Part shown: positions 35,768 through 60,428 of the stretch, piece after piece | How positions within the stretch are numbered: position 1 is the first letter of the stretch | How the letters are laid out: each line of letters begins with the position of its first letter | Assembly (NCBI GenBank): GCA_028279875.1 | Contig: JANQMU010000161.1 | Location: 1 to 64,000 of the forward strand | Source: Rhizobiaceae bacterium | Lineage (GTDB): Bacteria; Pseudomonadota; Alphaproteobacteria; Rhizobiales; Rhizobiaceae | Reading direction: 5' to 3' | DNA length: 64,000 bases | The notes under the pieces: model-generated | Told to the model about the DNA's origin: nothing | The model's input: the letters and a program-made list of their open reading frames with translations, nothing else | The model's database searches: none | Made by a program: the position numbers and the translations under genes

Positions 35768-35772
35768 GCGGC

Positions 35773-36264
35773 TTGGCAGTTGGAGATCACTACAGCATCG
35801 ACACGAGTGCCCTGATCGACTGGTGGGTCAGGTTCTATCCTCCGACCGTGTTCACGGGTCTGGTGCCGCGAATGGAACAGCTGATATCAGACGGACGTTT
35901 ACGTGCATCGCGAGAAGTGCGGGACGAATTGGAGCCGCGTAACGATGATTGCTTTAATTGGTCAAAAGAACAACAGGATTTGTTTGTCGATAGTGACAAC
36001 GCGATCCAAACGGTAGTCGCAGAACTAATGGAGCAGTATTTTAATCCCGAGAAACCGGACAAAGGAATTGGAGCGGCTGACCCCTTTGTCATTGGGCTTG
36101 CGGCCGTGCAAAATCCAACGCCTTGGGTTGTTGTTACCGGTGAAAAACCGGGTAGTGAGCAAAACCCAAAAATCCCGTGGGTATGTCGGCATTATGAACC
36201 CCAACCAATCCGCAGTATCAGTTTCCTGGAATTGATTACCGAAGAGGGCTGGCAACTTTCGTAG
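35773..36264 (+). CDS. DUF4411 family PIN-like protein (putative toxin)
   Basis: A 163-residue protein with the PIN-like acidic pattern: Asp10 in YSIDTSALIDWW, Glu48/Glu52 in SREVRDEL and Asp103 in GIGAADPFVIGLA. It is probably a metal-dependent RNase. The family is widely found next to Xre-COG2856 proteins and is predicted to be the toxin. The start is TTG at 35773 (MAVGDHYSID), close behind the ImmA/IrrE gene. There is no direct evidence of toxicity in the sequence. Confidence 0.8.
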   Translation: MAVGDHYSIDTSALIDWWVRFYPPTVFTGLVPRMEQLISDGRLRASREVRDELEPRNDDCFNWSKEQQDLFVDSDNAIQTVVAELMEQYFNPEKPDKGIGAADPFVIGLAAVQNPTPWVVVTGEKPGSEQNPKIPWVCRHYEPQPIRSISFLELITEEGWQLS

Positions 36265-44761: not shown

Positions 44762-45619
44762 CTATTTGCCTGCGGAAAACGCGGTCCGGATCGCCTCGGA
44801 CATTGCCTGTACCGCCGGACCGGCCGCCGAACCGCTTTTGTCGAGGACGAGCCGCGAGTGCGGCATCCGGGTGAAAATATCCGGTTCCGTCAAAATGCGA
44901 AAATCCTTGCCGATGCCGGATTCTCCAAGCAGTCCGATGGCAATGCCGGCTTCGATGGCCGCCGCGACCCCGCCGACGCTTTCGCTGGAATAGACGATGC
45001 GATAGGTGCGGCCGCTGTCGCGCAGGGTCTTCAGCGCAATGTCCCGCCACCAGCAGGCACGGTCGAACAGAGCGACGGGCAGCGGGTCCAGCACCTCGGG
45101 AGAATGCACGCGCGACGCGGCCCAGAAGGTTCTTTCATCGCTCAGAATCTCCTGGCGCGGTCCGGCGGTTTCGACCTCGTATAGGGCCAGATCCAGTTCA
45201 CCCGCGGAAATCGCCTCGGCATATCCGGCGCCCGAGGCACATTGAACATTCAATTCGACCATCGGGTGGCGCTTGGCGAAGTCGGCAACAATACCGGACA
45301 GGACCGTCTTGCTCCTGTCATCGGGAATGCCGATGCGGATGGCACCGGCCAGATCATCCGACCGGATATCCGCCAGGGAGGCGTCGAGCAGCGAGACCGT
45401 GCGCCGGGCGACCGGCTCCAGCTTCTCACCGGCGGGGCTGAGGGCGACACCGCGGGCGTGGCGCTCGAAAACCGGCTTGCCGACGATCTGTTCCAGTCGC
45501 TTGACCTGCAGGCTGACGGCCGATTGCGAACGTCCGATCCTGGCGGCGCCGGCGCTGATGCTGCCGGTGTCGATGATCGCCAGGAAACTGCGCAGCAGGT
45601 CGCTGTCGAGATGATCCAT
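44762..45619 (-). CDS. LysR family transcriptional regulator
   Basis: A 285-residue LysR protein: a winged helix at residues 6-64 (LLRSFLAIIDTGSISAGAARIGRSQSAVSLQVKRLE), then an effector domain with IRIGIPDDRSKTVLSGIVADF. The start is ATG 45619 (MDHLDSDLLRSFL). It diverges from an ArsP-type permease gene across a 100-base gap, so it most likely controls that gene. The effector is unknown. Confidence 0.9.
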   Translation of the reverse strand: MDHLDSDLLRSFLAIIDTGSISAGAARIGRSQSAVSLQVKRLEQIVGKPVFERHARGVALSPAGEKLEPVARRTVSLLDASLADIRSDDLAGAIRIGIPDDRSKTVLSGIVADFAKRHPMVELNVQCASGAGYAEAISAGELDLALYEVETAGPRQEILSDERTFWAASRVHSPEVLDPLPVALFDRACWWRDIALKTLRDSGRTYRIVYSSESVGGVAAAIEAGIAIGLLGESGIGKDFRILTEPDIFTRMPHSRLVLDKSGSAAGPAVQAMSEAIRTAFSAGK

Positions 45620-45719
45620 GGTCTGACATACCTGAAAAACTCATAACTGTCATTGAAACTATTCGTTTTTCATCTGGCTTTGCAATCCCTATCTTGCCGT
45701 CAGGAAACGGAGACCGGCG

Positions 45720-46742
45720 ATGAATACCGAAACGACCCGCACCATATCGCATCTCTTCCTGCCGACTTTGCTGATGGCGGGCCTGGCGGGTCTTGCCGGC
45801 TTCTCGATTTGGATGCCGGATGAGGCTCGCGCTCTTGTGCTGTTCGTTTTCAACAGCCTGATCAGCGTCGCACCGCTAGTGGTGCCGGGCATCCTCCTGG
45901 CCGCCTGGATTACCGCCAGCGGGTTCGGCGACAATATCGCCCGGGCCTTTGACGGCCGGATCGTTCATACCGTACTTGCCGCCTCGCTGATCGGCGCCAT
46001 CACGCCGGTCTGCGGCGTCACGGTGCTGCCGCTGATGGCGGGGCTCCTGAGCGCCGGCGTGCCGCTGGCGCCGATCATGGCCTTCTGGCTGTCCTCGCCG
46101 ATCACCGACCCGGCCATGCTGGCGACGACCGCCGCGACCCTCGGTGTTTCCTTTGCCGTCGGCAAAACCATCGCCGCCTTCCTGCTCGGCCTTGTCGGCG
46201 GGCTGGTGACGGCAGCATTCGCCAACCGGTCCTGGTATCGAAGCGCGCTTCGCCAAAACATACTGGTCGGCAGCCTCGGGCAACCATCCTGCGGCGGTAA
46301 CACCAATTTCGATCCGTCGATCTGGAAATCGCCGGACAGGCGCAAGCGGTTCCGCCGGGAAGCCTGGTCGATAACCCGGCTCATCCTGATCTGCCTCATT
46401 CCGGCATTCGCCGCCGAATTCGCCCTGAACGCCGTGCTGCAGCCGCAATCGCTGACGCCCTTTATCGGCGCCGAGAACTGGTGGGCCGTGCCGGTAGCGG
46501 TGTTCGTCGGCGCGCCAGCCTATCTGGACGGCTATGCCGCCCTGCCGCTGACCCGCAGCCTGATCGAACACGGCATGTCGCAGGGCGCGGCCATGGCCTT
46601 CCTGATTTCCGGCGGCGTGGTCAGCATCTGGGGCGCGATGGCGATCTTCCCGGTGCTCAAGGCAAAGCCGTTTCTCCTCTATCTCGGTCTGGCGCTCGCC
46701 GGATCCCTCGCTTCAGGCTGGCTGTTCGACTGGCTCGCCTGA
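45720..46742 (+). CDS. ArsP-type permease (DUF318/PF03773-like)
   Basis: A 340-residue membrane protein with eight to ten predicted spans. It has the duplicated permease pattern LISVAPLVVPGILLAAWI ... AITPVCGVTVLPLMAGLLSAGVPLAPIMAFWLSSPITDP in the first half, and FIGAENWWAVPVAVFVGAPAYLDGYAALPL in the second. ArsP relatives export organoarsenicals, but many homologues have other or unknown cargo. A Cys in SLGQPSCGGNTN lies in the central cytoplasmic loop. Divergent LysR control suggests an inducible exporter. A nested hairpin follows the stop. Confidence 0.75.
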   Translation: MNTETTRTISHLFLPTLLMAGLAGLAGFSIWMPDEARALVLFVFNSLISVAPLVVPGILLAAWITASGFGDNIARAFDGRIVHTVLAASLIGAITPVCGVTVLPLMAGLLSAGVPLAPIMAFWLSSPITDPAMLATTAATLGVSFAVGKTIAAFLLGLVGGLVTAAFANRSWYRSALRQNILVGSLGQPSCGGNTNFDPSIWKSPDRRKRFRREAWSITRLILICLIPAFAAEFALNAVLQPQSLTPFIGAENWWAVPVAVFVGAPAYLDGYAALPLTRSLIEHGMSQGAAMAFLISGGVVSIWGAMAIFPVLKAKPFLLYLGLALAGSLASGWLFDWLA

Positions 46743-47141: not shown

Positions 47142-48671
47142 GTGACGGGTGAGATTATCGGCTGGCTGAACACCGGCGAGACCGGCCGGGCCGAAGCCCT
47201 GCTGGAAGCCCATGGCGGGGCGCTGTTCGCCTTCGTGCACGGTTATGACGCGCTGCACCGCCTGGTGAAATCGGCCGGGGACGATGTGCTCAACAGCAGT
47301 CCGATGTTTCTGTCCTGCTATTGTTTTTCCCTGGTGAAATCCGGACGGGCGCGGCGGGCCACCGCCATCCTCGACGGCCGGCGCGATATCTTCCGGTCGG
47401 CGTTTTTGCGCACCCTGATGGAACTGGTCGTCTTCGTTCACACCAGCGATCCGGTCACCGACGCGCAGTTCCGGCGCTGGAAGCAGCTCGAGGGCCTGCT
47501 GCCGATCGATCAGCCGCTCTATGACGGTCTCTATTACAATTCCATGGCCATCGTACTGGTGCGTTTGAACCGGTTGGCGCAGGCCCGCAATTTCGCCCTG
47601 CGGTCGCTTGAAAGCTATCGGCAGGCAAAGCAGCCCGGACTGGAGTTCTTCATCCATCTGCATCTGGCCCATATCGCGGTTCTGGAGGGCCGTATCCACA
47701 GCGCCTACCGTGCAACGGATATGGCGCGAGCCATGACACAGAACGATGCGGCGCATATTTCCGGCCCGGTGCTGGTCGAGATCCTGGATTGCGCGATCGC
47801 CTGGGAGACGGGGCGGTTCGACACCGTGCCGGGCCGGGTCGTGGAACTGCGCCGCAAATTGCTGTCGGGCGATAGTTGGGCGGAGATCTTCGTCGAGCTT
47901 TGCCGGGCTGGCGCGTTTTCGATCTATTTCGCGGAAGGTCTCGAAAGCGCACTGACGTTTCTCGAAGAAAGCCAGATGGACTTCAATCGCCGCCATGGCG
48001 AGTTCTCGGAGGCACTGGACGTGATCGGCGCGGCGGTCGAACTGCTTGATGGCCGCCACGAACGGGCCCAGCTCTACGCCACTCTCTCCGCCGATCGCGA
48101 AAGGGCGCTGGGCGCAACCGGCACGATGGTGCTGGGCGGCATTGTGGGCAAGCTCGATACCGAAATTGATTGGCTGCCGGCACCGGTGGCCGGCGCATCG
48201 CCACGCTATGCGGTGATGAGCGAACTGGGCCGAGCGTCGCAGGCCAAGCTGGAGCGCGACAAGGTGCGCCAGCGCCGGCATGTCCAGAACGCCATGCGGC
48301 TAGCGGTGCAGGAGGGGCTGGTCGGCCTGTTTCTGGAACATCGGGAGCTTGTCGTCGGCGTGTCGTCGCAACTGGCGTCGGGCAAATTCGCGCGTGGCCA
48401 TATCCAGCTCGGCCGCATGGCGCGGCGCATCCACCACCTCGTGCGCCACAGCTATCTGACGCCGGTTTCGCTGTCGCGCCGTGGCGTCTCGGCGCAGCAG
48501 ATGCGGGTTCTGACGGCGCTCAGGGACGGCGCAAGCAACAAGCAGATCGCCCGTAAACTGGGGCTTTCCGAGGCCGCCATCAAATATCATCTCGGCCGGC
48601 TCTTCGTCTCCTTTGACGTCTCAAAAAGGGGGCAATTAATTGAAAAATTTGATGAATTTGTAGATTATTGA
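47142..48671 (+). CDS. LuxR-type transcriptional regulator with helical-repeat sensor region (MalT-like)
   Basis: A 509-residue protein. The C-terminal 65 residues are a LuxR/GerE helix-turn-helix (RRGVSAQQMRVLTALRDGA, then SNKQIARKLGLSEAAIKYHLGRL). The preceding 430 residues look like TPR-type helical repeats (LVRLNRLAQARNFALRSLESY) without an N-terminal ATPase module, so it is like the C-terminal half of MalT regulators. The start is GTG 47142; an in-frame stop at 47079 and no other start in between fix it. It lies upstream of, and codirectional with, the dipeptide-type ABC/HyuA/DUF917 operon and is its probable regulator. Confidence 0.82.
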   Translation: MTGEIIGWLNTGETGRAEALLEAHGGALFAFVHGYDALHRLVKSAGDDVLNSSPMFLSCYCFSLVKSGRARRATAILDGRRDIFRSAFLRTLMELVVFVHTSDPVTDAQFRRWKQLEGLLPIDQPLYDGLYYNSMAIVLVRLNRLAQARNFALRSLESYRQAKQPGLEFFIHLHLAHIAVLEGRIHSAYRATDMARAMTQNDAAHISGPVLVEILDCAIAWETGRFDTVPGRVVELRRKLLSGDSWAEIFVELCRAGAFSIYFAEGLESALTFLEESQMDFNRRHGEFSEALDVIGAAVELLDGRHERAQLYATLSADRERALGATGTMVLGGIVGKLDTEIDWLPAPVAGASPRYAVMSELGRASQAKLERDKVRQRRHVQNAMRLAVQEGLVGLFLEHRELVVGVSSQLASGKFARGHIQLGRMARRIHHLVRHSYLTPVSLSRRGVSAQQMRVLTALRDGASNKQIARKLGLSEAAIKYHLGRLFVSFDVSKRGQLIEKFDEFVDY

Positions 48672-48690
48672 AAATACTATACGCGAAAAA

Positions 48691-48716
48691 CCGAATTTAT
48701 ACCCTTTAGGATTCGG
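48691..48716. promoter_or_regulatory. dyad in the promoter gap of the ABC/HyuA/DUF917 operon
   Basis: CCGAAT (48691-48696) and ATTCGG (48711-48716) form an inverted repeat with half-site centres two helical turns apart. GGATTCG is also directly repeated (48709-48722). The 87-base gap lies between the LuxR-type gene and the first permease gene. It is a plausible operator for that regulator; this is inferred. Confidence 0.4.
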
Positions 48717-48758
48717 GATTCGATTTGCGTTCTGCCAGCATTGCGCGGGGAGTGCGTG

Positions 48759-49781
48759 ATGGCGTTTTACCTGACGAAGCGGGCGCTGTCGCTGTTGATG
48801 GTGCTGCTGGGACTGGCGGTGATGATTTTCATCATCGCGAGGATCGTTCCGGGCGATCCGGCGCGCATTGCGCTCGGACCGCTGGCAACGGCCAGCCAGG
48901 TCGCCGAACTGCGCCAGGAAATGGGGCTGAACGACCCGTTCTACGTCCAGCTCTGGAACTATCTGTCGGGCCTCGCGCGCGGCGATCTCGGCACGTCGCT
49001 GCTGACCAGCAGGCCGGTGATGAGCGACATATTGCAGGCGCTGCCGGCAACGTTCGAACTGGTGCTCGCGACCGTCATCCTGCAGGTCGCCATTTCCATT
49101 CCGCTGGGTGTGCTCGCCGCCTATTACCGCGATACCTGGATCGACAACATCACCCGCGTCCTGTCGCTGCTCGGGGTGGTCATCCCCGGCTTCGTCCTCG
49201 CCATCATTCTGCAATTGCTGGCGAGCTACTATTTCACCGCGTTTCCGGTGACGGGCCGCCTCGATCCGTCGCTGGATTTCCAGGCGACGACAACCGGGCT
49301 TCTGCTGGTCGATTCCCTGCTCGCCGGCCGGCCGGACGTCTTTCTCGACGCCCTTCGATATCTGTTCCTGCCGTCGATCGCGCTGGCCGCCGCCGGCATC
49401 GGCCAGGTCATGCGCATCACCCGCTCGGCGATGATCGAAGTGGGGTCTCGCGATTTCATCGAGGCGGCCCGGGCCTATGGAATCCCCGAGCGCGTGGTCA
49501 CGTTTCGCTACATGCTGCGGGTCGCCAGCGTCGCGCCGCTGACCATTCTCGGACTGGAATTCGCCTCGCTGATCGGCAATGCCTTTGTCGTCGAGTTCGT
49601 CTTCAGCTGGCCGGGCATCGCCAGCTACGGGGTACGGACGATCCTGCAGAAGGATCTCAATGCGGTGATCGGCGTCGTGCTTGTCTCCGGCGTGTTCTTC
49701 GTGATCGCCAATCTGACGATCGACGTCATTCTCGGCATTATCGACCCGCGCCACCGCATCCGGGGGGCGCAGAAGGCATGA
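48759..49781 (+). CDS. dipeptide/oligopeptide-type ABC transporter permease, DppB-like
   Basis: A 340-residue polytopic protein starting at ATG 48759 (MAFYLTKRALSLLMVLLGLAVMIF) with CGGGGAG upstream. Typical DppB features are a first span, then IVPGDPARIALG, and the cytoplasmic EAA-like loop EAARAYGIPERVVTFRYMLR. It ends in LTIDVILGIIDPRHRIRG. It is the first structural gene of the operon. Its stop overlaps the next permease start (ATGA). Confidence 0.92.
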   Translation: MAFYLTKRALSLLMVLLGLAVMIFIIARIVPGDPARIALGPLATASQVAELRQEMGLNDPFYVQLWNYLSGLARGDLGTSLLTSRPVMSDILQALPATFELVLATVILQVAISIPLGVLAAYYRDTWIDNITRVLSLLGVVIPGFVLAIILQLLASYYFTAFPVTGRLDPSLDFQATTTGLLLVDSLLAGRPDVFLDALRYLFLPSIALAAAGIGQVMRITRSAMIEVGSRDFIEAARAYGIPERVVTFRYMLRVASVAPLTILGLEFASLIGNAFVVEFVFSWPGIASYGVRTILQKDLNAVIGVVLVSGVFFVIANLTIDVILGIIDPRHRIRGAQKA

Positions 49782-50668
49782 GCAGCAGCCACTCGCAACT
49801 CGACGATGCACGGCAGCAGCGCACGCTTACCAGCCGACAGATGGCCTGGTACCGCTTCACCCGGAACCCCTCGGCAATGGTCGGAACCGTCATAGTCATC
49901 TCCGTCTTCGTCGGCGCGATTTTCGCGCCCTATCTCGCCACCCATCCGGAATCGGCCGGCGCCCATGTGGATTTCATCAACCGGCATTCGCCGCCGAACT
50001 GGGAGTTCTGGTTCGGGACCGACAATGTCGGGCGGGATATTTTCTCCCGGTCGCTCTACGGCTACCGGGTTTCGCTCGGACTGGTGGTCGGGGTGCTCGG
50101 CGTGGCGGTGCCCTTCGGCATCGCGCTCGGCCTTGCGGCCGGCTATTTCGGCGGGCGGACCGAGTTCGTCATCATGCGCTTCACCGACATCATGCTGGCG
50201 GTGCCGCCGCTCGCCATGGCGCTGGCGATCACCGCGGTGCTGTCGCCGAACCTGATCAACGCCATGATCGCCATTACGCTGTTGTGGTGGACCTGGCACA
50301 CGCGGCTGATCTTCCGCATCGTCAAGGCGCAGATGGCGGAGGACTATGTCGAGGCGGCGAAGGTCGCCGGCGCCAGCCATTTCCACATCATGTTCCGCGA
50401 ACTGCTGCCCAACTGCGTGTCGGCGATCTCGGTCAAGGTGTCGCTCGACGCCGGCTTCGTCATCCTGTTCGGCGCTGCCCTTTCCTTTCTCGGCCTCGGC
50501 GTGCAGCCGCCGACGCCGGATCTCGGCACGATGGTCAGCACCGGCTCGGAATATCTGCCGGAATTCTGGTGGGAAGCGGTGATGCCGGGCCTGGCGATCC
50601 TCTATGCGATCCTCGGTTTCAACCTGCTCGGCGACGGCCTGCGCGACATGATGGATGTCGAGCTATGA
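49778..50668 (+). CDS. dipeptide/oligopeptide-type ABC transporter permease, DppC-like
   Basis: A 296-residue partner permease starting at ATG 49778. It has the N-terminal OppC domain and the conserved FGTDNVGRDIFSRSLYGYRVSLGLVVG stretch. The EAA loop is EAAKVAGASHFHIMFRELLPN, and the C-terminal GAALSFLGLGVQPPTPDLGTM is diagnostic of this subunit. It overlaps both neighbours, which points to tight translational coupling. Confidence 0.93.
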   Translation: MSSSHSQLDDARQQRTLTSRQMAWYRFTRNPSAMVGTVIVISVFVGAIFAPYLATHPESAGAHVDFINRHSPPNWEFWFGTDNVGRDIFSRSLYGYRVSLGLVVGVLGVAVPFGIALGLAAGYFGGRTEFVIMRFTDIMLAVPPLAMALAITAVLSPNLINAMIAITLLWWTWHTRLIFRIVKAQMAEDYVEAAKVAGASHFHIMFRELLPNCVSAISVKVSLDAGFVILFGAALSFLGLGVQPPTPDLGTMVSTGSEYLPEFWWEAVMPGLAILYAILGFNLLGDGLRDMMDVEL

Positions 50669-52368
50669 CGACGGACCCCATTCTCGAGATTTCCGGCCTC
50701 GACATCTCGTTTACGAGCTACGGCCAGAAGAGCCGCATCCTGCACGATGTTTCGATGCAGATCGGCAAGGGCGAGCGGGTTTCGCTGATCGGCCAGTCCG
50801 GTTCAGGCAAGACCGTCACAATGCGCACCATTATCGGCACCCTGCCGATGCCGCCGGCCTCCATCGACCGCGGCTCGATCCGCTTCGAGGGCACCGAATT
50901 GCTGACGCTCGATAAGCGGGCCCGCAACCGGCTGAAGGGCACCGGCATTTCCATCGTGCTGCAGGACCCGATGCTGTCCTTCAACCCGCTGCTGACCATC
51001 GCGCGGCAGATGGACGACGTGGTGCGCTTCGCCGACATCAGGCTCGGCATTTCCCGCAATCGCACCGCGCGCCGCGCCCGCATCCACGAGGTGCTGCGCA
51101 GCGTCCAGCTCGCCGATCCGGAGCGCATCTGCGAAGCTTATCCGATGATGCTGTCGGGCGGCATGCGCCAGCGGGTGCTGATCGGCATGGCCCTGCTCAA
51201 CAACCCGCGGCTGCTGATCGCCGATGAGCCGGGCACTGCGCTGGATGTGACGACGCAGCAGGAAATCCTGGTGCTGCTCAACCGGCTTGTCGACGAGACC
51301 GGCATGTCGCTGATGCTGATCACCCACAATCTCGGCGTCGTGCGCGAGATGGCCGACCGGGTTTATGTCATGGAACGCGGCCGCATCGTCGAGACCGGAA
51401 CCCGGGCCGACATTTTTGACAAACCGCAGCACGGCTACACAAAGCGCCTGATGGAGGCGGTGCCGGCACTCTACGGCCCCAATGTAACGGATGTCACCAA
51501 TCACCGGGCCGCCAATGCGATCATCGAGGTCCGGGACCTCAGCAAGGATTTTCCGCTGCGCAGCGGCCTGTTCAACCGCCAGATGGGCGTCACCCGAGCC
51601 GTCAGGGATGTCGCACTGACCATCAATCGCGGCGATGTTTTCGGCATTGCCGGCGAATCGGGCTCCGGAAAGACGACGCTCGCCAAGATGATGCTCGGCC
51701 TGTTCGAGACGACCAGCGGCGGCATCACCATGGATACGCTGAATGTCGAGGATGCCGCCGGCAGCCGCGACTTCCGCAAGCTGGTGCAGATCGTCTATCA
51801 AAATCCGGGATCATCGCTCAATCCGAAGCGCACCGTCGCCGACCAGCTCTCCGTGCCACTGATCTTCGCCGATTACGACCGGCGGGCAATCGCGAAGAAA
51901 ATCCGCGATCTGCTCGAACTGGTCGACCTGCCGGCCCGCTATGCGTCGATGTATCCGCATGAGCTCTCCGGCGGCCAGAAGCAGCGGGTGGCCATTGCCC
52001 GGGCACTATCGGTCGATCCGAAGATCCTGGTGCTGGACGAACCGACCTCGGCGCTCGATGTGCTGATCCAGAACGTGGTGATCGATCTCCTGCAGCGGCT
52101 GCGCGAAGAACTCGATCTGACCTATGTGTTCATCAGCCACGATCTGAGCCTGATGCGCAATTTCTGCAACCGGGTGGCGATCATGTTTCGCGGCGAAATC
52201 TGCGAACAGGGACCGACGCCGGAGGTCTTCGCCGATCCGCAACACCCCTATACGCGGGCGCTGCTGAGCGCGATTCCGGTGCTCACCGACGCGGAAGCCG
52301 CGCAGAAACCCGTTATCGAGGCCAGCGAGCGCAAGGCTGTCCTGTTGTCAACGACCACGCTGAATTGA
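50665..52368 (+). CDS. dipeptide ABC transporter ATPase, DppD-DppF fusion
   Basis: A 567-residue protein containing two complete ABC domains that are separate proteins in E. coli. Domain 1 has Walker A GQSGSGKTVT, signature LSGGMRQR and LLIADEPGTALDV. Domain 2 has GESGSGKTTLA, LSGGQKQRVAIA and LVLDEPTSALDV. Each has an oligopeptide-type C-terminal tail (DKPQHGYTKRLMEAVPAL and ADPQHPYTRALLSAIPVL). Domain 1 reads DEPGT where DEPTT is usual. The start is ATG 50665, overlapping the DppC-like stop. Confidence 0.93.
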   Translation: MTTDPILEISGLDISFTSYGQKSRILHDVSMQIGKGERVSLIGQSGSGKTVTMRTIIGTLPMPPASIDRGSIRFEGTELLTLDKRARNRLKGTGISIVLQDPMLSFNPLLTIARQMDDVVRFADIRLGISRNRTARRARIHEVLRSVQLADPERICEAYPMMLSGGMRQRVLIGMALLNNPRLLIADEPGTALDVTTQQEILVLLNRLVDETGMSLMLITHNLGVVREMADRVYVMERGRIVETGTRADIFDKPQHGYTKRLMEAVPALYGPNVTDVTNHRAANAIIEVRDLSKDFPLRSGLFNRQMGVTRAVRDVALTINRGDVFGIAGESGSGKTTLAKMMLGLFETTSGGITMDTLNVEDAAGSRDFRKLVQIVYQNPGSSLNPKRTVADQLSVPLIFADYDRRAIAKKIRDLLELVDLPARYASMYPHELSGGQKQRVAIARALSVDPKILVLDEPTSALDVLIQNVVIDLLQRLREELDLTYVFISHDLSLMRNFCNRVAIMFRGEICEQGPTPEVFADPQHPYTRALLSAIPVLTDAEAAQKPVIEASERKAVLLSTTTLN

Positions 52369-52378
52369 GAGGTATCGG

Positions 52379-53920
52379 ATGTACCGGATAGGAATAGATG
52401 TCGGCGGAACCAATACGGATGCCGTGATCATGGGCGGCGACACGCTCGTGCTCGGTGTCAAATCGCCGACGACGGAGGACGTGACCGGCGGTATCGTCGC
52501 CAGCCTGACCCGGGTCCTTGAGGAAAGCGGCATCGGCGCCGACCAGATCAGCGCCGTGATGATCGGTACGACCCATTTCACCAATGCCGTGGTCGAGCGG
52601 CGGCGAATGTCGAAAACGGCTGCGGTGCGGCTGTGCCTTCCGGCCGCCGAATGCCTGCCGCCGATGGTCGACTGGCCCGACGACATTCGCGAGACGGTTG
52701 GCGGCCAATACTGGCTGGCCAAGGGCGGCAATGAGTTCGACGGCCGCGAGATCTCGGGGATCGACGAGGACGAATTGCGCGGCATCGCCGACGAAATCGG
52801 CAAGCAGGACATCGATACGATTGCGCTGTGCTCGGTTTTCAGCCCGGTCAACAACGAGATGGAGCAGCGGGCGCACACGATCCTGTCGGAACGGCTGCCG
52901 CACGCCAATTTCACCCTGTCGAGCGATATCGGCCGGCTCGGGATTCTGGAGCGCGAAAACGCCGCCATCATGAACGCCTCACTGCGCAAGCTCAGCGCCG
53001 AGACCGTGGAGGCCTTCGGCAAGGCGCTGGCCTCGGCGGGCCTTAACTGCCCCTGCTACATCACCCAGAACGACGGCACGCTGATGAGCGCCGAATTCGT
53101 CCGCGCCTATCCGGTGCTGACATTCGCCAGCGGCCCGACCAATTCGATGCGCGGCGCGTCGTTCCTGACCGGCGAGCAAAACGCCGTCGTCGTCGATATC
53201 GGCGGCACGTCGACGGATGTCGGTTCGATCATCAAGGGCTTTCCGCGCCAGGCCAGCACCTCGGTCGATATCGGCGGCGTGCGGACCAATTTCCGCATGC
53301 CGGATGTCTATTCCATCGCGCTGGGCGGCGGATCGATCGTCGAAATCGGCGACCCGATCACCGTCGGACCCAAATCCGTGGGATACCGCATCCACACCGA
53401 CGGCCTGCTGTTCGGCGGCCAGACCACGACGGCGACCGATATCGCCGCCGGTCTCGGCCAAGCGGATTTCGGCGACCCGGCGCCGGCCCGGGCGATCGGC
53501 GAAGACCGTCTCAAGGCCGTGTGGTCGGTCATCGACGGGATGATCGTCAACGCCGTGGAACGGATGCGCGTCTCGCCGGAAAGGATTCCGGTGCTGGCGG
53601 TCGGCGGCGGCAGCATTTTGATGGGCGACCAGGTCGGGGAACTGCCGGTCATCAAGCCGGAGAATTTTGCGGTTGCCAATGCGGTCGGCGCGGCGATCGG
53701 GCAGATCAGCGGCGAGGTCGACCGGATCTTCAGCCTGGAAAAGACCTCGCGCGACGAGGCGCTGGAAAGCGCCCGCAAGGAAGCGACCGACAAGGCCATC
53801 GCCGCCGGCGCCAACAGGGACACGATCGAAATCCTCGACCAGGAGGACGTCCCGCTCGCCTATCTGCCCGGCAACGCCACCCGCATCCGTCTCAAAGTGG
53901 TGGGTGATCTCGATGGATAG
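52379..53920 (+). CDS. hydantoinase/oxoprolinase (HyuA-like) family protein
   Basis: A 513-residue ASKHA-fold protein. An N-terminal GIDVGGTNTDAVIMGG and a second phosphate loop VVVDIGGTSTDVGSI fit HyuA/5-oxoprolinase-A-like ATP-dependent ring-opening enzymes. It is shorter than the usual 650-700 residues of HyuA, and no HyuB gene is present. The gene is 10 bases after the transporter ATPase and overlaps the first DUF917 gene. Such short forms next to DUF917 probably act on a cyclic amide; the substrate is unknown. Confidence 0.85.
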   Translation: MYRIGIDVGGTNTDAVIMGGDTLVLGVKSPTTEDVTGGIVASLTRVLEESGIGADQISAVMIGTTHFTNAVVERRRMSKTAAVRLCLPAAECLPPMVDWPDDIRETVGGQYWLAKGGNEFDGREISGIDEDELRGIADEIGKQDIDTIALCSVFSPVNNEMEQRAHTILSERLPHANFTLSSDIGRLGILERENAAIMNASLRKLSAETVEAFGKALASAGLNCPCYITQNDGTLMSAEFVRAYPVLTFASGPTNSMRGASFLTGEQNAVVVDIGGTSTDVGSIIKGFPRQASTSVDIGGVRTNFRMPDVYSIALGGGSIVEIGDPITVGPKSVGYRIHTDGLLFGGQTTTATDIAAGLGQADFGDPAPARAIGEDRLKAVWSVIDGMIVNAVERMRVSPERIPVLAVGGGSILMGDQVGELPVIKPENFAVANAVGAAIGQISGEVDRIFSLEKTSRDEALESARKEATDKAIAAGANRDTIEILDQEDVPLAYLPGNATRIRLKVVGDLDG

Positions 53921-55022
53921 TCTCAGACGCGTCGCCGAACGGGAACTCAATGCCATCGAGGTCGGCTCAGGCATTCTGGGGACCGGCGGCGGCGGAAATC
54001 CCTATATCGGCAAGTTGCGCTGCCGGGAGGAACTGCGCAAGGGGCGGCGCATCGACGTGATCCCGTTGCTCGAACTGGCCGACGATGCGCTGGTGGTCTC
54101 GCTGGGCGGCATTGGCGCGCCCGTCGTCGGGGTGGAAAAGATCGAACAGGGCGAAGAATGCCTGCGGGCGCTGCGGGCACTGGAAGAGGAGCTCGGCCAG
54201 AGGATCGATGCGACGATTTCTTCCGAAATCGGCGGCGCCAATTCCATGGAACCGATGCTGACCGCCGCACAGGCGGGCATTCCGGTCGTCGATGGCGACG
54301 GCATGGGCCGGGCCTTCCCGGAAATGCAGATGTGCACCTGGTCGATCTACGGCCACAAATCCTCGCCGTCGGCGATGGCCGACGAGAAGGGCAATGTGGT
54401 GGTCTTCCGCCACACCGCCTCCGAGGTCTGGCTCGAGCGACTGGCCCGCGCCTCGGTGGTGGCGATGGGCGCGGCGGCGGGCATCGCGCTGGCGCCGATG
54501 CGTGGTGATTTCGTCAAGAAATTCGCCGTTCCCGACACCGTCACCCAGGCCTGGTCGCTCGGCAATGCGGTGTTCGAGGCGCAGGCCCATCACCGCGATC
54601 CGGTGGCGACGATCCTCGAACACGAGGATGGCCGGCTGCTGATGACCGCCAAGATCGTCGACCTCAAGCGGCATCTCAAGGGCGGTTTCGCCGTCGGCGA
54701 GGTCAAGGTCGAGGGCTTCGGCGCCTATCAGGGTGAAACCGCCGTCATTGATCTGCAGAACGAGTTCCTGGTGTTCCGCCGCAACGGGGTGATGGAAGCC
54801 TGCGTGCCGGACCTGATCGTCGTGCTCGATTCGGACACCGGCCTGCCGATCACCACGGAGGTCCTGCGCTACGGACAGCGGGTGGCGATCCTGGCACTGC
54901 CGTGCCACGACTTGCTGCGTTCCGACGCCGCGCTGAAGGTCGTGGGTCCGGCGGCCTTTGGCTATGCCGATCTCGTCTATTCACCCCTGCCCCGAAGCAG
55001 CAAAGCGGGAGACGTTCAATGA
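53913..55022 (+). CDS. DUF917 (S-methyl-thiohydantoin desulfurase-like) protein 1
   Basis: A 369-residue DUF917 protein. It opens with GSGILGTGGGGNPYIGKL, then ISSEIGGANSMEPMLTA and the strongly conserved VVDGDGMGRAFPEMQM. The family's two-domain form is now named after an S-methyl-thiohydantoin desulfurase (recalled from domain databases, not checked). ATG 53913 overlaps the HyuA-like stop by eight bases. It is followed directly by a second, divergent copy. The two share the same motifs but not the same details, so this is a paralogous pair. Confidence 0.88.
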   Translation: MDSLRRVAERELNAIEVGSGILGTGGGGNPYIGKLRCREELRKGRRIDVIPLLELADDALVVSLGGIGAPVVGVEKIEQGEECLRALRALEEELGQRIDATISSEIGGANSMEPMLTAAQAGIPVVDGDGMGRAFPEMQMCTWSIYGHKSSPSAMADEKGNVVVFRHTASEVWLERLARASVVAMGAAAGIALAPMRGDFVKKFAVPDTVTQAWSLGNAVFEAQAHHRDPVATILEHEDGRLLMTAKIVDLKRHLKGGFAVGEVKVEGFGAYQGETAVIDLQNEFLVFRRNGVMEACVPDLIVVLDSDTGLPITTEVLRYGQRVAILALPCHDLLRSDAALKVVGPAAFGYADLVYSPLPRSSKAGDVQ

Positions 55023-56161
55023 CCATCGACCCACTGCGGATCATCAACCGGTCGGATATGGCCGACATCGCGCTCGGCGGCGCATTCCTGGGCACCGGCG
55101 GCGGCGGCGATCCCTATATCGGCAAGCTGATGGCCGAACGGGCGATCGACGAAAACGGACCGGTGCCGGTGGTCGATGTCGACGCGCTGGACGACGAGGC
55201 GCTGATCATACCGGTGGCGATGATGGGCGCTCCGACCGTGATGCTGGAAAAGCTGCCCAACGGGCGCGAGGCCGGCAATGCGCTGAGGGCGCTGGAAGCC
55301 TATCTCGGCAAGACGGCCGACGCGGTTTTCTGTATCGAGGCCGGCGGGCTCAACTCGACCATCCCGATCGCGGTCGCCGCGGCGGCCGGCCTGCCGATCG
55401 TCGATGGCGACGGCATGGGCCGGGCCTTTCCGGAACTGCAGATGGTGTCGCTCACCATGCATGATCTGAAGGCGACGCCGATGGTCATGGCCGACGAGAA
55501 GGGCAATTCGGTGGTCATCAACGCGGTCGACAATCTGTCGACGGAAAAATTCGCCCGGGTGGCGACGGTCGAGATGGGCGGCGCGGCGCTGATCGCGCTC
55601 TATCCGATGCGCGGGCGGGAGGCCAAGAAGGCCATCCTGCGCGGATCGATGTCGCTGATCAAATCGATCGGCCGGATCATCGAATCCGAACAAAAGGCCA
55701 ATCGCAACCCGGTTCACGCCCTGGCGGCGCAGCTCGACGGTCACCGGCTGTTCGAAGGCCGGGTGCATGATGTCGACCGGCGCACCGAGGGCGGCTTTGC
55801 CCGCGGCACCTGCACCCTGGCGGGCCTCGGCCCGGACGAGGGCGGGAGCATCACACTGGAGTTTCAGAACGAATTTCTGATCGCCAGGCGGCCCGACGGC
55901 GCGCCGCTGGCCATGACACCCGATCTCATCTGTCTGCTCGACCTGGAAACCGGGCAGCCGATCACGACGGAGCAGATCAGATACGGATTCCGCGTCATCG
56001 TCTTCGGTCTTCCCTGCAACGGGCAATGGCGATCGGAGCACGGGCTGGAATTGGTGGGTCCGCGATATTTCGGCTACGCGCTGGACTATCAGCCTATCGA
56101 GACCCTCAATGGTCAGGCGGACCGCCCGACCGATAACAAAGGGAGCTACAAGCATGAGTAA
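55019..56161 (+). CDS. DUF917 (S-methyl-thiohydantoin desulfurase-like) protein 2
   Basis: A 380-residue paralogue of the preceding gene. It has LGGAFLGTGGGGDPYIGKLM, then IEAGGLNSTIPIAVAA and VDGDGMGRAFPELQMVSL. The SSEIGGANS of the first copy is here CIEAGGLNS, which suggests that the two differ in the active pocket or form a heteromer. The start is ATG 55019 (MTIDPLRIINRSDMADIAL), overlapping the previous stop. Its stop in turn overlaps the start of the binding-protein gene. Confidence 0.88.
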   Translation: MTIDPLRIINRSDMADIALGGAFLGTGGGGDPYIGKLMAERAIDENGPVPVVDVDALDDEALIIPVAMMGAPTVMLEKLPNGREAGNALRALEAYLGKTADAVFCIEAGGLNSTIPIAVAAAAGLPIVDGDGMGRAFPELQMVSLTMHDLKATPMVMADEKGNSVVINAVDNLSTEKFARVATVEMGGAALIALYPMRGREAKKAILRGSMSLIKSIGRIIESEQKANRNPVHALAAQLDGHRLFEGRVHDVDRRTEGGFARGTCTLAGLGPDEGGSITLEFQNEFLIARRPDGAPLAMTPDLICLLDLETGQPITTEQIRYGFRVIVFGLPCNGQWRSEHGLELVGPRYFGYALDYQPIETLNGQADRPTDNKGSYKHE

Positions 56162-57740
56162 GACCAGAAAATCACTTCGCAACGGGCTGCTGGGCGCAGC
56201 GCTCGCCCTCGGCGTTTCCGCCGGCGTGACCGGACCGGCCGCGGCCGAGAACGTCGCCACGGTCAATGTGGTACAGATCTTCGGCACGATCGATCCGGCC
56301 AAGATCAACGACTACACCGAATATATGGCCGGCGTGAATCTCTACGAGGCGCTGACGACGCTCGATTCGAAGGGCAACATCCTGCCGCTGATTGCGGAAA
56401 AATGGGACGTTTCCGACGACACGCTGACCTATACGTTTCACCTGAAAGACGGGGTGACGTTTCAGGACGGCTCGCCGGTTGAAGCCAAGGATGTCGTCTA
56501 TTCGGTCAAGCGGCTGCTGTCGCTCAATGAGGGACCGGCCTTCCTTTTCGAAGGCGTTCTCGATCCCGATTCCGTATCGGCGATTGACAACAAGACGGTC
56601 CAGTTCAAGCTGAATAAGGTCTATTCGCCGTTCCTGACCAACACGCCGATCCTGTTCGTGGTCAATAGCGACCTGGCGGAGGAGAACAACTCGGACTCCG
56701 ATCCCTGGGCCACCCAATATCTCGCCAACAACAGCGCCGGCGCCGGTGCCTATATGCTCGACAGCTGGAACCGCGGCGCCAATATGACCATCAAGCGCTA
56801 TGACGGCTACCATCTGGGCTGGACCGACGAGGCCATCGACACGGTGCGGTTCGTGGTGACCAATGAGGAAGCGACGGTCAAGGCGCTGGCCGCCTCCGGT
56901 GAGCTGTCGATGTCGAGCGACGCGCAGGCGCAGGAGACCTATGATTCGATCGGCAAGCTGCCCGACTACCGGATCATCGAATATCCGACGGCCACGAATT
57001 TCTACCTGAAACTCAATCATCAGGTGGCGCCGACGGATGATGTCAATATCCGCCGGGCGATCGCTGCCGCGACGGATTACGAGACCATCCGCGCCGCGCT
57101 GCTGCCGGGCGAGCCGCTTGCCGGCCCGATGCCGGCGGTGTTCGCGGAGGCCTATAACAACGATCTCGCGATGCCGAAATTCGATCTCGAGGCGGCGCGC
57201 GCCCATGTGGAGAAAAGCAAATATGCCGGCGGCGATCCGATACCGGTCGAGATCATGTTTGTCGCCGGGCTGGCCTTCGAGGAGGAAATCGCCCTCCTGA
57301 TGAAGTCCAATCTCGATCAGATCGGCTTCAACACCATCCTGAAACCCGAACCCTGGAATCGGATGACCGAACTCGCCGGCAAGCCGGAGACGACGCCGGC
57401 GATCAACGAGGTGTTCTACGGCGCCACCTATCCGTCGCCGGACAGTTTCTTCTACACCCAGTATCATTCCAATGCGAAGGGTACCTGGGCGTCGATGGAA
57501 TGGGTGCTCGACCCGGAACTCGATGCGATGATCGACGCCGCCCGCGGCACCGCGGACATCGCCAAGCAGAACCAGATCTACAAGGACATTCAGGCGCGCC
57601 TTGTCGACCAGCAGTCGGATGTCTTCCTGCTGACCCAGCGCAGCCAGCAGGCCTTCCACAACTGCCTGCAGGGCTTCTCGTGGGTTCCCATGCAGAGCTT
57701 CGAGTTCAATTTCTACAATATGAAATGGGTCTGCGACTGA
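56154..57740 (+). CDS. ABC transporter substrate-binding protein, family 5 (oligopeptide type)
   Basis: A 528-residue periplasmic binding protein of the DppA/OppA family. The start is ATG 56154 (MSKTRKSLRNGLLGAAL), with a signal peptide to about residue 31 (cleavage near AAAEN). The family signature is in WDVSDDTLTYTFHLKDGVTFQDGSPVEAKDVVYSVKRLL. It captures the compound that the operon's permeases import. Placing the binding protein last, after the catabolic genes, is unusual for dpp-type operons. A strong terminator follows. Confidence 0.93.
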   Translation: MSKTRKSLRNGLLGAALALGVSAGVTGPAAAENVATVNVVQIFGTIDPAKINDYTEYMAGVNLYEALTTLDSKGNILPLIAEKWDVSDDTLTYTFHLKDGVTFQDGSPVEAKDVVYSVKRLLSLNEGPAFLFEGVLDPDSVSAIDNKTVQFKLNKVYSPFLTNTPILFVVNSDLAEENNSDSDPWATQYLANNSAGAGAYMLDSWNRGANMTIKRYDGYHLGWTDEAIDTVRFVVTNEEATVKALAASGELSMSSDAQAQETYDSIGKLPDYRIIEYPTATNFYLKLNHQVAPTDDVNIRRAIAAATDYETIRAALLPGEPLAGPMPAVFAEAYNNDLAMPKFDLEAARAHVEKSKYAGGDPIPVEIMFVAGLAFEEEIALLMKSNLDQIGFNTILKPEPWNRMTELAGKPETTPAINEVFYGATYPSPDSFFYTQYHSNAKGTWASMEWVLDPELDAMIDAARGTADIAKQNQIYKDIQARLVDQQSDVFLLTQRSQQAFHNCLQGFSWVPMQSFEFNFYNMKWVCD

Positions 57741-57752
57741 TCCTGTGAACCG

Positions 57753-57780
57753 ACCGGAGGCGGCCAGCGCCGCCTCCGGT
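57753..57780 (+). terminator. terminator hairpin of the ABC/HyuA/DUF917 operon
   Basis: A perfect 12-bp stem (57753-57764 with 57769-57780) closes a CAGC tetraloop, 12 bases after the binding-protein stop. There is no T-run, so termination may be partly Rho-dependent. Confidence 0.75.
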
Positions 57781-57900: not shown

Positions 57901-59895
57901 TCACGCACCGCGTGTGACCGTGTTCCGGCTGTCGGCGGGATTGCCGCCATGCTCGCGAATGTAATTGGAGAACAGGGAGGCCGACAACGGCTCGCAGATA
58001 TAAAAACCCTGAGCATAGCCGCAGCTGGTTCCGGCCAGAAACTCAAGCTGGTCCGCGCTTTCGACGCCTTTGGCAAGGGCCTCCATCTCCAGCGCCTCGC
58101 ACATGGTCAGAATCGATTTCACCAAGCCGCGTTTGCGCGGCGAGTCCTCCAGTTCAAACAGGAAGGACCGATCGATCTTGATGCGGTCAATGTCCAGTTC
58201 GGCGATGCTGCCAAGGCTTGAATAGCCGGTGCCGAAATCGTCGGCGGCGGTACGAACGCCCATGCCGCGGACCGCTGCCAACGCCGTCAGGACCGCCCCC
58301 CGATTGTGACTGAAAACCTGCTCGGTCAGATCGAGTTCGAGGATATTGGCGGGCAGGCAGGTCTCCTTCAGCACCCTGGCCAGGAAGGCACTGAAGCCTG
58401 GTTCCTCGAACTGGCGCCCGGAGACATTGACGCTGAGCGTAAAACCATCGGCCAGCCGCGGTATCCAGGCGGCTGCCTGCCGGCAGGCCTGGCGCAGAAC
58501 CAGCCTGTCGAGTTCAAGAATCAGGTCGGACTTTTCGGCGACCGGCAGAAATTCGGGCGGGGAGACAATCTTTCCGGTTTTCGGGTTCTTCCAGCGCAGC
58601 AGCGCCTCGACGCCGGTCAGCCGCCCGGTCGAAACCGCCAATTGCGGCTGCCAGACCAGGAAGAACTCTTCGTTCTCAATGCCGCGCCGGATGCTTTCTT
58701 CCATTTCGACACGATTGTCGAGATGCACCTTGAGCGCCGGCGAGTAGGTGACGGCCCGCTGCCTGCCATCGGCCTTGGCAGCATAGAGCGCAAGATCGGC
58801 ATGCCGCAGCAACTCACTGACGGTCCCGCCATGGTCAGGGCAGAAGGACAGGCCGATGCTGGCCGCAAGCATGACCTGGTGCCCGTCGACCTCACGAAAC
58901 CCGGAAAGCTCCTCACAAAGCGTCTCCCCGAACCGTACCAGATCCTGGCCGCTGCCGGCGGCCTTGATGAAGGCGAATTCATCACCACCCAACCGGATGG
59001 CGGCGGCGGAGCGGTGGATGTCGTGGGATTTCAGAATGTCGGCAACCGCCCGCAGGAGATCGTCACCAGCCTGATGTCCGAACGTGTCATTGACCTGCTT
59101 GAAATGATCGAGGTCGATCAGATAGATGGCGAGGCGCTGATGCGCCGCCTTGGCGTCCTTGATGAACTTGCCGCTCTTCTCCATCAGCCACGCCCGGTTC
59201 TTCAAGCCCGTGACGGCGTCCTGCCAGGCCAGCTTGTGCAGCTTTCTTTCGGCACGCTGCCTCTGCACCAGAAGAATGGCGATGCCGATGAGGAGCGTCG
59301 ACAGGACAGCCAGGATGGCCAGAACCTGACGATTCAGCGCCCGCAGCGCCGATTGCGCCTGATGAAGACCCTCGCTGGATTCCTCGCCGACGCTGTAATA
59401 ATACCGGTTCAGTTCGAGCTCCACCGCTTCGAGTTGGGCGGTGACGGCCCTGAGGGTCGTCTGATCGAGCGGCTGCGGCCGGGCCAGCATCTCGTCCAGG
59501 GTCTCGATGATGGCAAGCACCGTGTCCCGTAAACCGGAATGGATGTCGAGATCGGCCGCCATCGGTGTGCGGTCGACACTGGCAAATCGTATATGGGCGA
59601 GGTCGGCTGCCTCTGCCAGGAGTTCCCGGCCCTCGGCGCTGGCGGGGTCGGCGCGGGCAAGCAGCACCATATCCTTCAGCCGGTCGATATCCCGGATATG
59701 GGCGTGCAGTGTCCGGAATGACAGAAAGCCATATTGCGGCAGCGCTTTCTCGACGGAACGGATATTGCTGTAGATCGTCGTGATGATCGCCAGCGACAGG
59801 CCGATGGCAACAACCACCGCCAGGGTCTCGCGGGCCATCGCCAGGGCGGCCAGCCGTGCCAATCCGCCGTCCTGCCGGGATGCGCGCGATCCCAT
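57901..59895 (-). CDS. membrane GGDEF-EAL protein with defective EAL site
   Basis: A 664-residue protein: a first membrane span at about 22-42, a periplasmic sensor region (about 43-185), a second span at about 188-208, a GGDEF domain (about 220-385) and an EAL domain (about 395-650). GGDEF is intact (RLGGDEF), but the inhibitory RxxD site reads HRSA. EAL has EALLRW, the Asn in VNVS, DDFGTGYSS and KIDRSF, but the motif AEGVE reads AKGVE: Lys609 replaces the general-base Glu. It should make c-di-GMP but not degrade it. The start is ATG 59895, overlapping the stop of the secreted protein gene by ATGA. Confidence 0.9.
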   Translation of the reverse strand: MGSRASRQDGGLARLAALAMARETLAVVVAIGLSLAIITTIYSNIRSVEKALPQYGFLSFRTLHAHIRDIDRLKDMVLLARADPASAEGRELLAEAADLAHIRFASVDRTPMAADLDIHSGLRDTVLAIIETLDEMLARPQPLDQTTLRAVTAQLEAVELELNRYYYSVGEESSEGLHQAQSALRALNRQVLAILAVLSTLLIGIAILLVQRQRAERKLHKLAWQDAVTGLKNRAWLMEKSGKFIKDAKAAHQRLAIYLIDLDHFKQVNDTFGHQAGDDLLRAVADILKSHDIHRSAAAIRLGGDEFAFIKAAGSGQDLVRFGETLCEELSGFREVDGHQVMLAASIGLSFCPDHGGTVSELLRHADLALYAAKADGRQRAVTYSPALKVHLDNRVEMEESIRRGIENEEFFLVWQPQLAVSTGRLTGVEALLRWKNPKTGKIVSPPEFLPVAEKSDLILELDRLVLRQACRQAAAWIPRLADGFTLSVNVSGRQFEEPGFSAFLARVLKETCLPANILELDLTEQVFSHNRGAVLTALAAVRGMGVRTAADDFGTGYSSLGSIAELDIDRIKIDRSFLFELEDSPRKRGLVKSILTMCEALEMEALAKGVESADQLEFLAGTSCGYAQGFYICEPLSASLFSNYIREHGGNPADSRNTVTRGA

Positions 59896-60428
59896 CAATC
59901 GGCCCGTTGCACCGTCTTGATCAGCCAGACCCACCGGTTCCTGTGGACCGGATTGTCGAGTTCGGGATGATCCAGAACGGGGTAGACCAGTCGCGTCGGC
60001 CCCTGGCTGCGCCGGGTCAGGAAGGCACCATCGGCGCGCAGTGCGAGCAAGGTCGGATAATCGACCCAGTCCTTGCGCGGAATCCGCTGGGAGTAATTGT
60101 CCAGGGCGTGAATGATGACCGCCTCGGCATCCGACAGTTGCACCAGGGCGAGCACATCACGAAACAGCACGCCTTCGAATTCCTGCCGACCCCTTTCCCA
60201 CGGGCTGTCGGTCAGCAGCCGGTATTGCGGCAGACGGCTGAGATCGGCAAGGTCGATGACGATCTTGCCGTCACGGTGAACGACGGTGAAGGCCCGGCCC
60301 GAGGCGACCGGCTGATCGCGCAGACGCTCGATGGCGCCGGCCGGACCTGCCATCAGGACGGCCAGCAGCCCCGCCCATGCCAGGACGGAACCCATGCGAA
60401 CCCGGCGGCGTTGTCTGCGGTTGTTCAA
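59895..60428 (-). CDS. secreted protein resembling molybdopterin-binding oxidoreductase domains
   Basis: A 177-residue protein with a signal peptide (arginine-rich n-region, then GSVLAWAGLLAVLMAGPAGA, cleavage near residue 32). The rest recalls the sulfite-oxidase-like molybdopterin fold (FEGVLFRDVLALVQLSDAEAVIIHALDNYSQRIP) but has no Cys to ligate molybdenum, so it is probably a binding or sensory version. The start is TTG 60428, with GGGAACC upstream; ATG 60395 is the alternative. Its coupling to the membrane diguanylate cyclase suggests that it modulates that enzyme from the periplasm. Confidence 0.7.
   Translation of the reverse strand: MNNRRQRRRVRMGSVLAWAGLLAVLMAGPAGAIERLRDQPVASGRAFTVVHRDGKIVIDLADLSRLPQYRLLTDSPWERGRQEFEGVLFRDVLALVQLSDAEAVIIHALDNYSQRIPRKDWVDYPTLLALRADGAFLTRRSQGPTRLVYPVLDHPELDNPVHRNRWVWLIKTVQRAD

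Follow-up and report, generated by a model that had tools for sequence, protein, structure and literature searches.

The subject of this work is an operon of eight genes on contig JANQMU010000161.1 of a Rhizobiaceae bacterium (assembly GCA_028279875.1), the first 64,000 nucleotides of which, read on the forward strand, constitute the window analysed here. The operon joins the genes for a dipeptide-type (Dpp) importer to those for a short HyuA-type ATPase and two paralogous DUF917 (S-Me-THD-like) proteins, and it is the association of these last three, the enzyme triad, that concerns us. All eight genes lie on the plus strand. The first encodes a LuxR-family (GerE) transcriptional regulator of 509 residues with a GTG start (47142..48671), whose GerE domain occupies residues 450-500 (38.7 bits) and whose first 450 residues gave no family match in the profile search. 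There follow a DppB-type permease (dppB, 48759..49781; BPD_transp_1, 1.1e-33), for which an alternative TTG start is open at 48741; a DppC-type permease (dppC, 49778..50668; BPD_transp_1 4.4e-26, OppC_N 1.1e-12); and a fused DppD-DppF ATPase with two ATP-binding cassette (ABC) domains (dppDF, 50665..52368; ABC_tran in two stretches, 5.1e-62). The triad comes next: the short HyuA-type ASKHA ATPase of 513 residues (52379..53920; PF05378, PF01968 partial), the paralogue DUF917a of 369 residues (53913..55022; PF06032 2.3e-58, PF20906 8.4e-65; clade A of the tree described below) and the paralogue DUF917b of 380 residues (55019..56161; PF06032 4.5e-59, PF20906 2e-66; clade B). The last gene encodes a periplasmic solute-binding protein of family 5 (56154..57740; SBP_bac_5 1.3e-67), whose best match in the PDB is DppA (1dpe, 4.8e-29).

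The initial annotation of this stretch had described the same eight genes, with the binding protein last, and every one of them was recovered at its coordinates. The overlapping packing that it reported holds for nearly all of the operon, where successive overlaps measure 4, 4, 8, 4 and 8 nt, but dppDF and hyuA are spaced 10 nt apart and the regulator stops 87 nt before the dppB start. The regulator itself had been called LuxR/MalT-like; the second half of that label is too strong, since nothing but the C-terminal GerE helix-turn-helix is recognised and the MalT model gives 23.7 bits against a cut-off of 537. Past the last stop codon lies a 12-bp perfect hairpin without a T run (57753..57780, plus strand; -34.1 kcal/mol and z -4.2 for segment 57741-57800), which was not among the calls of the terminator scan and possibly marks the end of the operon. 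The next long open frame (57901-59934) is on the opposite strand.

A search with DUF917a and DUF917b gave 471 confirmed places, and the best 80 loci were kept and analysed; genes in these related loci come from a codon-usage caller, their labels are BLAST best hits to single examples, and the resulting counts hold to within a few. A short HyuA with a same-strand DUF917 gene no more than two genes away is found in 75 of the 80. Two others (L107, L119) have both genes, not as same-strand close neighbours, and no short HyuA was called in L063, L117 and L124, whose contigs begin at or inside the operon. This layout is far beyond chance expectation. The tandem arrangement of the window, a short HyuA followed by two same-strand DUF917 genes, recurs in 60 of the 80 loci; among these tandem loci, the dppB, dppC, dppDF and binding-protein genes are all nearby in 51, a DppB-type or binding-protein gene lies within 8 kb in 57, and a LuxR-type gene is upstream in 38. 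Even the details of the packing tend to be kept, since hyuA and DUF917a overlap in 52 of the 60 (by 8 nt in 35) and the two DUF917 genes in 42 (by 4 nt in 30). Many of the relatives with this layout are Rhizobiaceae and Rhodobacteraceae; two loci from the Deinococci (L072 and L075, Trueperaceae) are reshuffled, beginning with a PucR-type gene and ending with the transporter. Conservation is seen in the triad and in the importer, while the genes that flank the cassette vary from locus to locus.

The partnership of the short HyuA with DUF917 is also evident in whole genomes. Three samples were scored, two of 289 genomes and one of 41. A short HyuA was called by E limits in the two larger samples, with HyuA scoring on the top five candidates per genome and PF06032 scoring on the top twelve, and by a clear gap (4e-147 to 1e-33) in the smaller one; a DUF917 was counted as strong at 170 bits or more on PF06032, a line set after the scores were seen. 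The sets of genomes with a short HyuA and with a strong DUF917 are identical in each sample (20/289, 11/41 and 6/289). When the samples are merged and shared genomes counted once, 34 genomes have both and none has one only, so that the survey of co-occurrence proposed in the initial annotation finds the two in the same genomes. The genomes inside each sample are related to one another; in the class sample the short HyuA is distributed over 16 genera. The remaining DUF917 matches are weaker (52-129 bits). They come from 6, 3 and 3 further genomes, none of which has a short HyuA, and G449 and G147 have additional copies of this weaker kind. In the class survey made with HyuA, the short HyuA adjoins a DUF917 in 20 of 22 loci; in the two misses (L172, L182) it stands alone at the locus and a strong DUF917 is found elsewhere in the genome. 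It thus looks as if the short HyuA and DUF917s of this kind form an obligate set.

Evolutionary distances were also correlated, over the 57 loci that have all five genes compared. Within the triad these correlations are high (HyuA-A 0.909, HyuA-B 0.885, A-B 0.909), as is that between the binding protein and DppB (0.897). Between the two groups they are lower: 0.514, 0.597 and 0.605 for HyuA, A and B against the binding protein, and 0.738, 0.807 and 0.764 against DppB. Because genes of one operon share a history in any case, only this difference between the modules is informative, and by this measure the triad and the importer behave as two separate co-evolving modules.

The conservation of HyuA motifs was assessed on 36 of 76 short and 19 full-length sequences, some of them stop-to-stop translations. 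The short form is uniform in size (490-529 residues in 119 of 122 called genes) and lacks 113-136 C-terminal residues relative to 14 of the 19 full-length HyuAs and 77 relative to one; against the other four, for which the alignment may be poor, the shortfall is 6-12 residues. K28 is kept, a lysine conserved in full-length HyuAs too, whereas eight residues that never vary among the short HyuAs (H66, R84, E119, E193, N231, D232, R258 and R302) are mostly changed in the full-length ones. Both of the phosphate motifs defined for this ATPase type (PMC8453981) are retained, as D7/G9/T11/T13/D14 and D273-GGT. The structure model (predicted local distance difference test, pLDDT, 90.7) finds its best match in N-methylhydantoinase (9h03, E 1.3e-33), and it also matches caprolactamase (6yra, E 4.4e-24) and acetone/acetophenone carboxylase subunits.

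DUF917 proteins are found in bacteria and archaea, and a tree of 200 of them is divided into two deep clades, A (92 members) and B (102), each with a support of 0.97. To judge from this topology, A and B are ancient paralogues. The two members in the window are 43% identical and carry the pair of distinct motifs that had been pointed out in the initial annotation, SSEIGGANS and CIEAGGLNS. A precedes B in 57 of the 60 tandem loci; the DUF917 pieces of L068 and L069 are below tree length and by BLAST resemble A followed by B, and in L108 only B-type genes follow HyuA. With residues numbered on the 369-residue DUF917a, the tandem A and B proteins show fixed differences (at least 93% on each side) at N29/D, R36/M, G66/M, I67/M, I106/A, K247/R and A340/G. 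Several of these are close to the conserved GGGG loop and to the EIGG/EAGG motif, and the fixed positions may line a pocket. By comparison, all 194 members of the two clades share E75, E105, N110, D129, E175 and R253, which are candidates for handling an activated substrate or for docking HyuA. The DUF917s of two HyuA-carrying loci that fall outside both clades (L111, L132) retain five and six of these residues, respectively. The idea that one of the pair is a degenerate, dead scaffold was discarded, the shared core being intact in both clades. The DUF917a model (pLDDT 94.2) has a single match at E of 0.001 or better, 2o3i (1.8e-23), a structural-genomics entry without a named function. No HyuA-DUF917 fusion was called in the regions examined around open frames of 864-920 residues, the 864-residue frame of G131 being excluded.

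Forms with a single DUF917 accompany NCS1 permeases, AroM genes, or importers of the polyamine or Dpp type, and the tandem forms accompany Dpp-type importers. B-type proteins occur singly in archaeal loci, where NCS1 permeases mostly accompany them, and single A-type proteins stand beside AroM genes and AroM-GerE fusions. AroM is present within 8 kb in 3 of the 60 tandem, none of 17 non-tandem and 10 of the 22 class-survey loci. In the fusions (L079:5319-6263 and L196:7437-8258), which stand beside HyuA-DUF917 genes, an AroM domain is joined to a LuxR-type GerE helix-turn-helix, and the AroM part is possibly a ligand sensor.

Taken as a whole, the operon is in our opinion, at about even confidence, an importer combined with an ATP-dependent opener of a small cyclic amide, in which the DUF917 pair would take the place of HyuB. 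The compound would be imported by the binding protein and the DppBC-DF transporter. The short HyuA would bind ATP and activate the ring carbonyl as an O-phosphate, as has been proposed for the caprolactamase subunit CapA and for oxoprolinase. The A/B pair would then bind the activated ring and add water to the activated carbon, which is the job of HyuB in the hydantoinases and in caprolactamase, and the linear product would be finished by general peptidases of the cell. DUF917 chemistry would thus be reused from the thiohydantoin desulfurases, with an ATP-derived phosphate rather than sulfur as the leaving group. The desulfurase DUF917s attack, by substitution, a ring carbon that bears a leaving group, and for this reason the replacement of HyuB by DUF917 seems chemically reasonable by analogy. 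In one of the mechanisms proposed for caprolactamase, the HyuA-type subunit makes an O-phosphorylated lactim that the HyuB-type subunit hydrolyses; two others involve carboxyphosphate (PMC8453981).

As to the substrate, we lean modestly, and only tentatively, towards a ring derived from a peptide, for instance a 2,5-diketopiperazine (cyclic dipeptide), for the tandem cassette. The ground for this is that examples of racemase, M20 peptidase and ErtD have no match within 8 kb in any of the 60 tandem loci, and a dipeptide product would need no further dedicated enzyme. The binding protein has Gly372 and Thr425 where DppA has Arg355 and Asp408, in alignment columns that are moderately certain, and we take these two DppA residues to be the contacts for the two ends of a dipeptide. 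The PDB chains 8z1y_F and 8z1z_F differ at exactly DppA positions 355 and 408, which fits their importance. Since both contacts are missing, ordinary dipeptides are an unlikely cargo of the predicted importer. The initial annotation is therefore supported in part: its self-contained uptake and ring-opening pathway fits the conserved triad and importer, the variable flanks and the lost dipeptide contacts; the desulfuration it offered as an alternative is weakened, as will be seen below.

In favour of a peptide-derived ring, genes of peptide metabolism are found beside some relatives. Cyclodipeptide-oxidase-like genes are present in L108, L117, L119, L120, L123 and L124, with a 68-residue piece in L110; an M19 dipeptidase is present in L079 and L080 and an M29 peptidase in L111. 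In the Archaeoglobus loci L120 and L123, the cluster holds a DUF917, the short HyuA, an NCS1 permease, a racemase, a DUF6092-type protein, a dipeptide-epimerase-like enzyme and a second DUF917, to which L120 adds a nitroreductase. In Chelativorans multitrophicus DSM 9103 (L079) and Chelativorans sp. J32 (L080), a luciferase-like monooxygenase and a flavin mononucleotide (FMN) reductase precede the triad, which is followed by the M19 dipeptidase and TctA/TctC transporter genes; the families were tested by Pfam on L079 only, and L080 is alike in layout by gene lengths and BLAST labels. The L079 flavoprotein is of the nitrilotriacetate-monooxygenase type. It was suspected of belonging to a pathway for ethylenediaminetetraacetate (EDTA), with a ketopiperazine substrate, and this idea was rejected: the monooxygenase scores 251 bits to EDTA monooxygenase and 361-401 bits to six other distinct PDB sequences, and although a structure of the EDTA-binding protein EppA has been reported (PMC7312458), no PDB entry matches the binding protein of L079 at 1e-40 or better.

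A number of observations weigh against ring opening by this triad, or against a cyclic dipeptide as its substrate. The absences in the neighbourhoods were all called by BLAST against single examples. A cyclodipeptide-oxidase-like gene within 8 kb is found in just 1 of the 60 tandem, 3 of the 17 non-tandem and none of the 22 class-survey loci, and M19 near 2 of the 60 and none of the 22, so that the peptide-side evidence for the tandem cassette itself is thin. The dipeptide-epimerase-like enzymes of L120 and L123 reach 271 bits against a cut-off of 500, and a further one labelled by BLAST near L075 was eliminated, the enolase-family gene there being of the MenC type. Racemases (0/60 tandem, 4/17 non-tandem, 0/22 class-survey) and NCS1 permeases (0/60, 11/17 and 4/22) do occur within 8 kb of non-tandem loci. 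In the tandem locus L105, an Amidohydro_3 gene lies 12 nt downstream, and the ring is possibly opened there by another enzyme. Four loci of the tandem lineage have only one DUF917, of type A in L067 and L194 and of type B in L129 and L193; the pair is therefore not always needed, and one DUF917 suffices in some versions. In L129 (plasmid pMLa of Mesorhizobium japonicum), a short hypothetical gene at the place of A shows no DUF917 similarity by tblastn. In the short HyuA the adenosine motif GxxPGP has become VGYR, the PGP being gone, and the residue of caprolactamase 6yra that aligns with K28 is at position 32 and is not Lys40. Known DUF917 chemistry is, moreover, on hydantoin-type rings. Lys40 of CapA is the residue discussed in the caprolactamase paper (PMC8453981), and for cyclodipeptide-oxidase clusters PMC11055893 proposes hydantoin- or allantoin-like substrates.

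Several of these points lend themselves to another explanation, possible rather than probable in our view, that the same HyuA-DUF917 machine acts on a hydantoin or dihydropyrimidine-type ring to yield an N-carbamoyl amino acid, which a carbamoylase encoded elsewhere would finish. Judging by their model names and by the L198 operon considered below, both named DUF917 families have thiohydantoin-type rings as substrates; the NCS1 permeases and Asp/Glu/hydantoin racemases stand beside single-DUF917 relatives; a CN_hydrolase lies near the second copy in the same genome; and the best fold match of the short HyuA is a hydantoinase. Yet that CN_hydrolase scores best as a deaminated glutathione amidase, under the cut-off, the importers are of the peptide type in 57 of the 60 tandem loci, and the M20, ErtD and racemase examples are unmatched around all 60, with L105 and its Amidohydro_3 gene as the qualifying case.

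It is improbable that the short HyuA is instead an ATP-driven activator which, like those of the 2-hydroxyacyl-CoA dehydratases, reshapes or reloads DUF917 and phosphorylates no substrate. The loss of the adenosine motif of lactamase-type HyuA would fit such a role, and the ASKHA fold does match the activators 4ehu and 1hux, with 20 bits on CoA_E_activ. These matches are far weaker (about 1e-6) than those to HyuA, CapA and carboxylase subunits (1e-24 to 1e-33), however, and both phosphate motifs and the lysine common to full-length HyuAs are kept.

The desulfuration of a thiohydantoin or thioamide compound, to which we attach only a slight probability, has in its favour that the Pfam families are those of S-methyl thiohydantoin desulfurase and thiohydantoin desulfurase. 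The NCBIfam model names for DUF917 hold two reactions only, both of them desulfurations. The window proteins share with these enzymes both the N and C domains of S-Me-THD, the GGGG loop, R133, R179, N283 and E284. They reach just 95-114 bits on both desulfurase models (NF058529 / NF058532), however, whose cut-offs are 440 and 450. The cut-off for thiohydantoin desulfurase was exceeded by genes in 4 of 299 genomes, and that for S-methyl thiohydantoin desulfurase was reached in none of 397; three of the genes above the former score just 60-61 bits on PF06032. Around one of the four (L198), the sole desulfurase operon annotated in full, are an aromatic lyase, an ErtD above its cut-off, an M20 peptidase and a urocanase, and no HyuA; from its gene content this operon is of the ergothioneine-utilisation type, with ring-opening and M20 genes of its own. 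Desulfurase-type genes are present in six genomes, exceeding a cut-off in four and staying below it in G347 and G386, and five of the six are without a short HyuA (E 1e-60); the sixth, G147, has its short HyuA on another contig, adjoining strong DUF917s. In four desulfurase-type references, two above and two below the cut-off, the six residues invariant in A and B are mostly changed, E75, N110, D129 and R253 in all four and E105 and E175 in three. Because desulfurases occur without HyuA and the window DUF917s score far under the cut-offs, desulfuration by this cassette appears unlikely, and that part of the initial annotation is weakened. Least probable of all is that DUF917 substitutes an amine or thiol at the activated carbonyl, so that the operon would modify a peptide-like compound without degrading it: desulfurase chemistry is indeed a substitution, and the actinobacterial locus L132 has pyridoxal phosphate (PLP) and OsmC genes between its two DUF917s, but the operon has an importer, no exporter and no further modifying enzyme, and looks catabolic.

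The cassette can be set beside several known systems. With HyuAB, OplAB and CapAB, the ATP-dependent cyclic amidases N-methylhydantoinase, 5-oxoprolinase and caprolactamase, it shares a HyuA-type ASKHA ATPase with both phosphate motifs, the K28 lysine and the fold; it differs from them in the missing GxxPGP and full C-terminal part, and none of the eight genes encodes a HyuB, the DUF917 pair being present instead. Its transporter has the family-5 binding protein, two permeases and DppD/F ATPases of the Dpp dipeptide importer, but DppD and DppF are fused and the binding protein is without Arg355 and Asp408. The clusters of PMC11055893 offer a further comparison: as far as the accessible portion of that source goes, DUF917 genes lie near cyclodipeptide-oxidase genes, with peptide ABC transporters as in our cassette and a predicted hydantoinase activity, and neither the HyuA-DUF917 coupling nor the A/B pair is described. 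The oxidase is present in some relatives of our operon and not in the operon itself. A literature search by titles and the beginnings of abstracts, with most subscription journals outside its coverage, found no HyuA-DUF917 enzyme; the component families are known, and the literature searched showed neither their coupling nor a fixed A/B pair. Somewhat short of even confidence, we suggest that the short HyuA and DUF917 may form an ATP-dependent cyclic amidase of two or three parts that belongs to a class not described before. In it the S-Me-THD fold would replace HyuB, and the two fixed paralogues would act on one activated ring, as a hetero-complex or sequentially; the class would extend from archaea to proteobacteria with exchangeable transporters, and in the present cassette it would be tied to an importer of cyclic dipeptides.

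The cassette also appears to be mobile on an evolutionary scale. Within its own genus, the window HyuA is 93% identical to that of G003 and only 60-61% identical to those of G001, G005, G006 and G007, and no short HyuA was found in the same-genus genomes G002 and G004 (41-genome sample); it is 83% identical to the HyuA of G011, which belongs to a different genus. This pattern of identities suggests that the cassette has been exchanged horizontally. The genome under study has a second short HyuA with a B-type DUF917 (L012, G000:C159:38000-57999), whose neighbours are an S-adenosylmethionine-dependent carboxyl methyltransferase (PF03492), the CN_hydrolase mentioned above and another transporter of the Dpp type, the second. 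This genome (G000) has seventeen matches to the HyuA N-terminal family, which look like a large set of hydantoinase/oxoprolinase-type genes. Elsewhere in the window, an ArsP_1-type permease gene (45720-46742, plus strand) has a LysR-type regulator gene beside it on the opposite strand (together 44762-46742). At 34538-36264 the GC content is low (0.532 in 34001-36000, compared with about 0.62 in the surroundings). This stretch encodes a protein with a helix-turn-helix and a peptidase-like part and a small PIN-like protein, both translations judged by eye, and it resembles a module that is mobile or of the toxin-antitoxin type.

The strict coupling to a distinct short HyuA separates those DUF917 proteins that are coupled to ATP from a second branch, the desulfurases, that is not, and it suggests a reaction for the ATP-coupled branch that can be tested. 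Should cyclic dipeptides prove to be the substrate, the operon would also provide a genetic system dedicated to taking them up and cleaving them.

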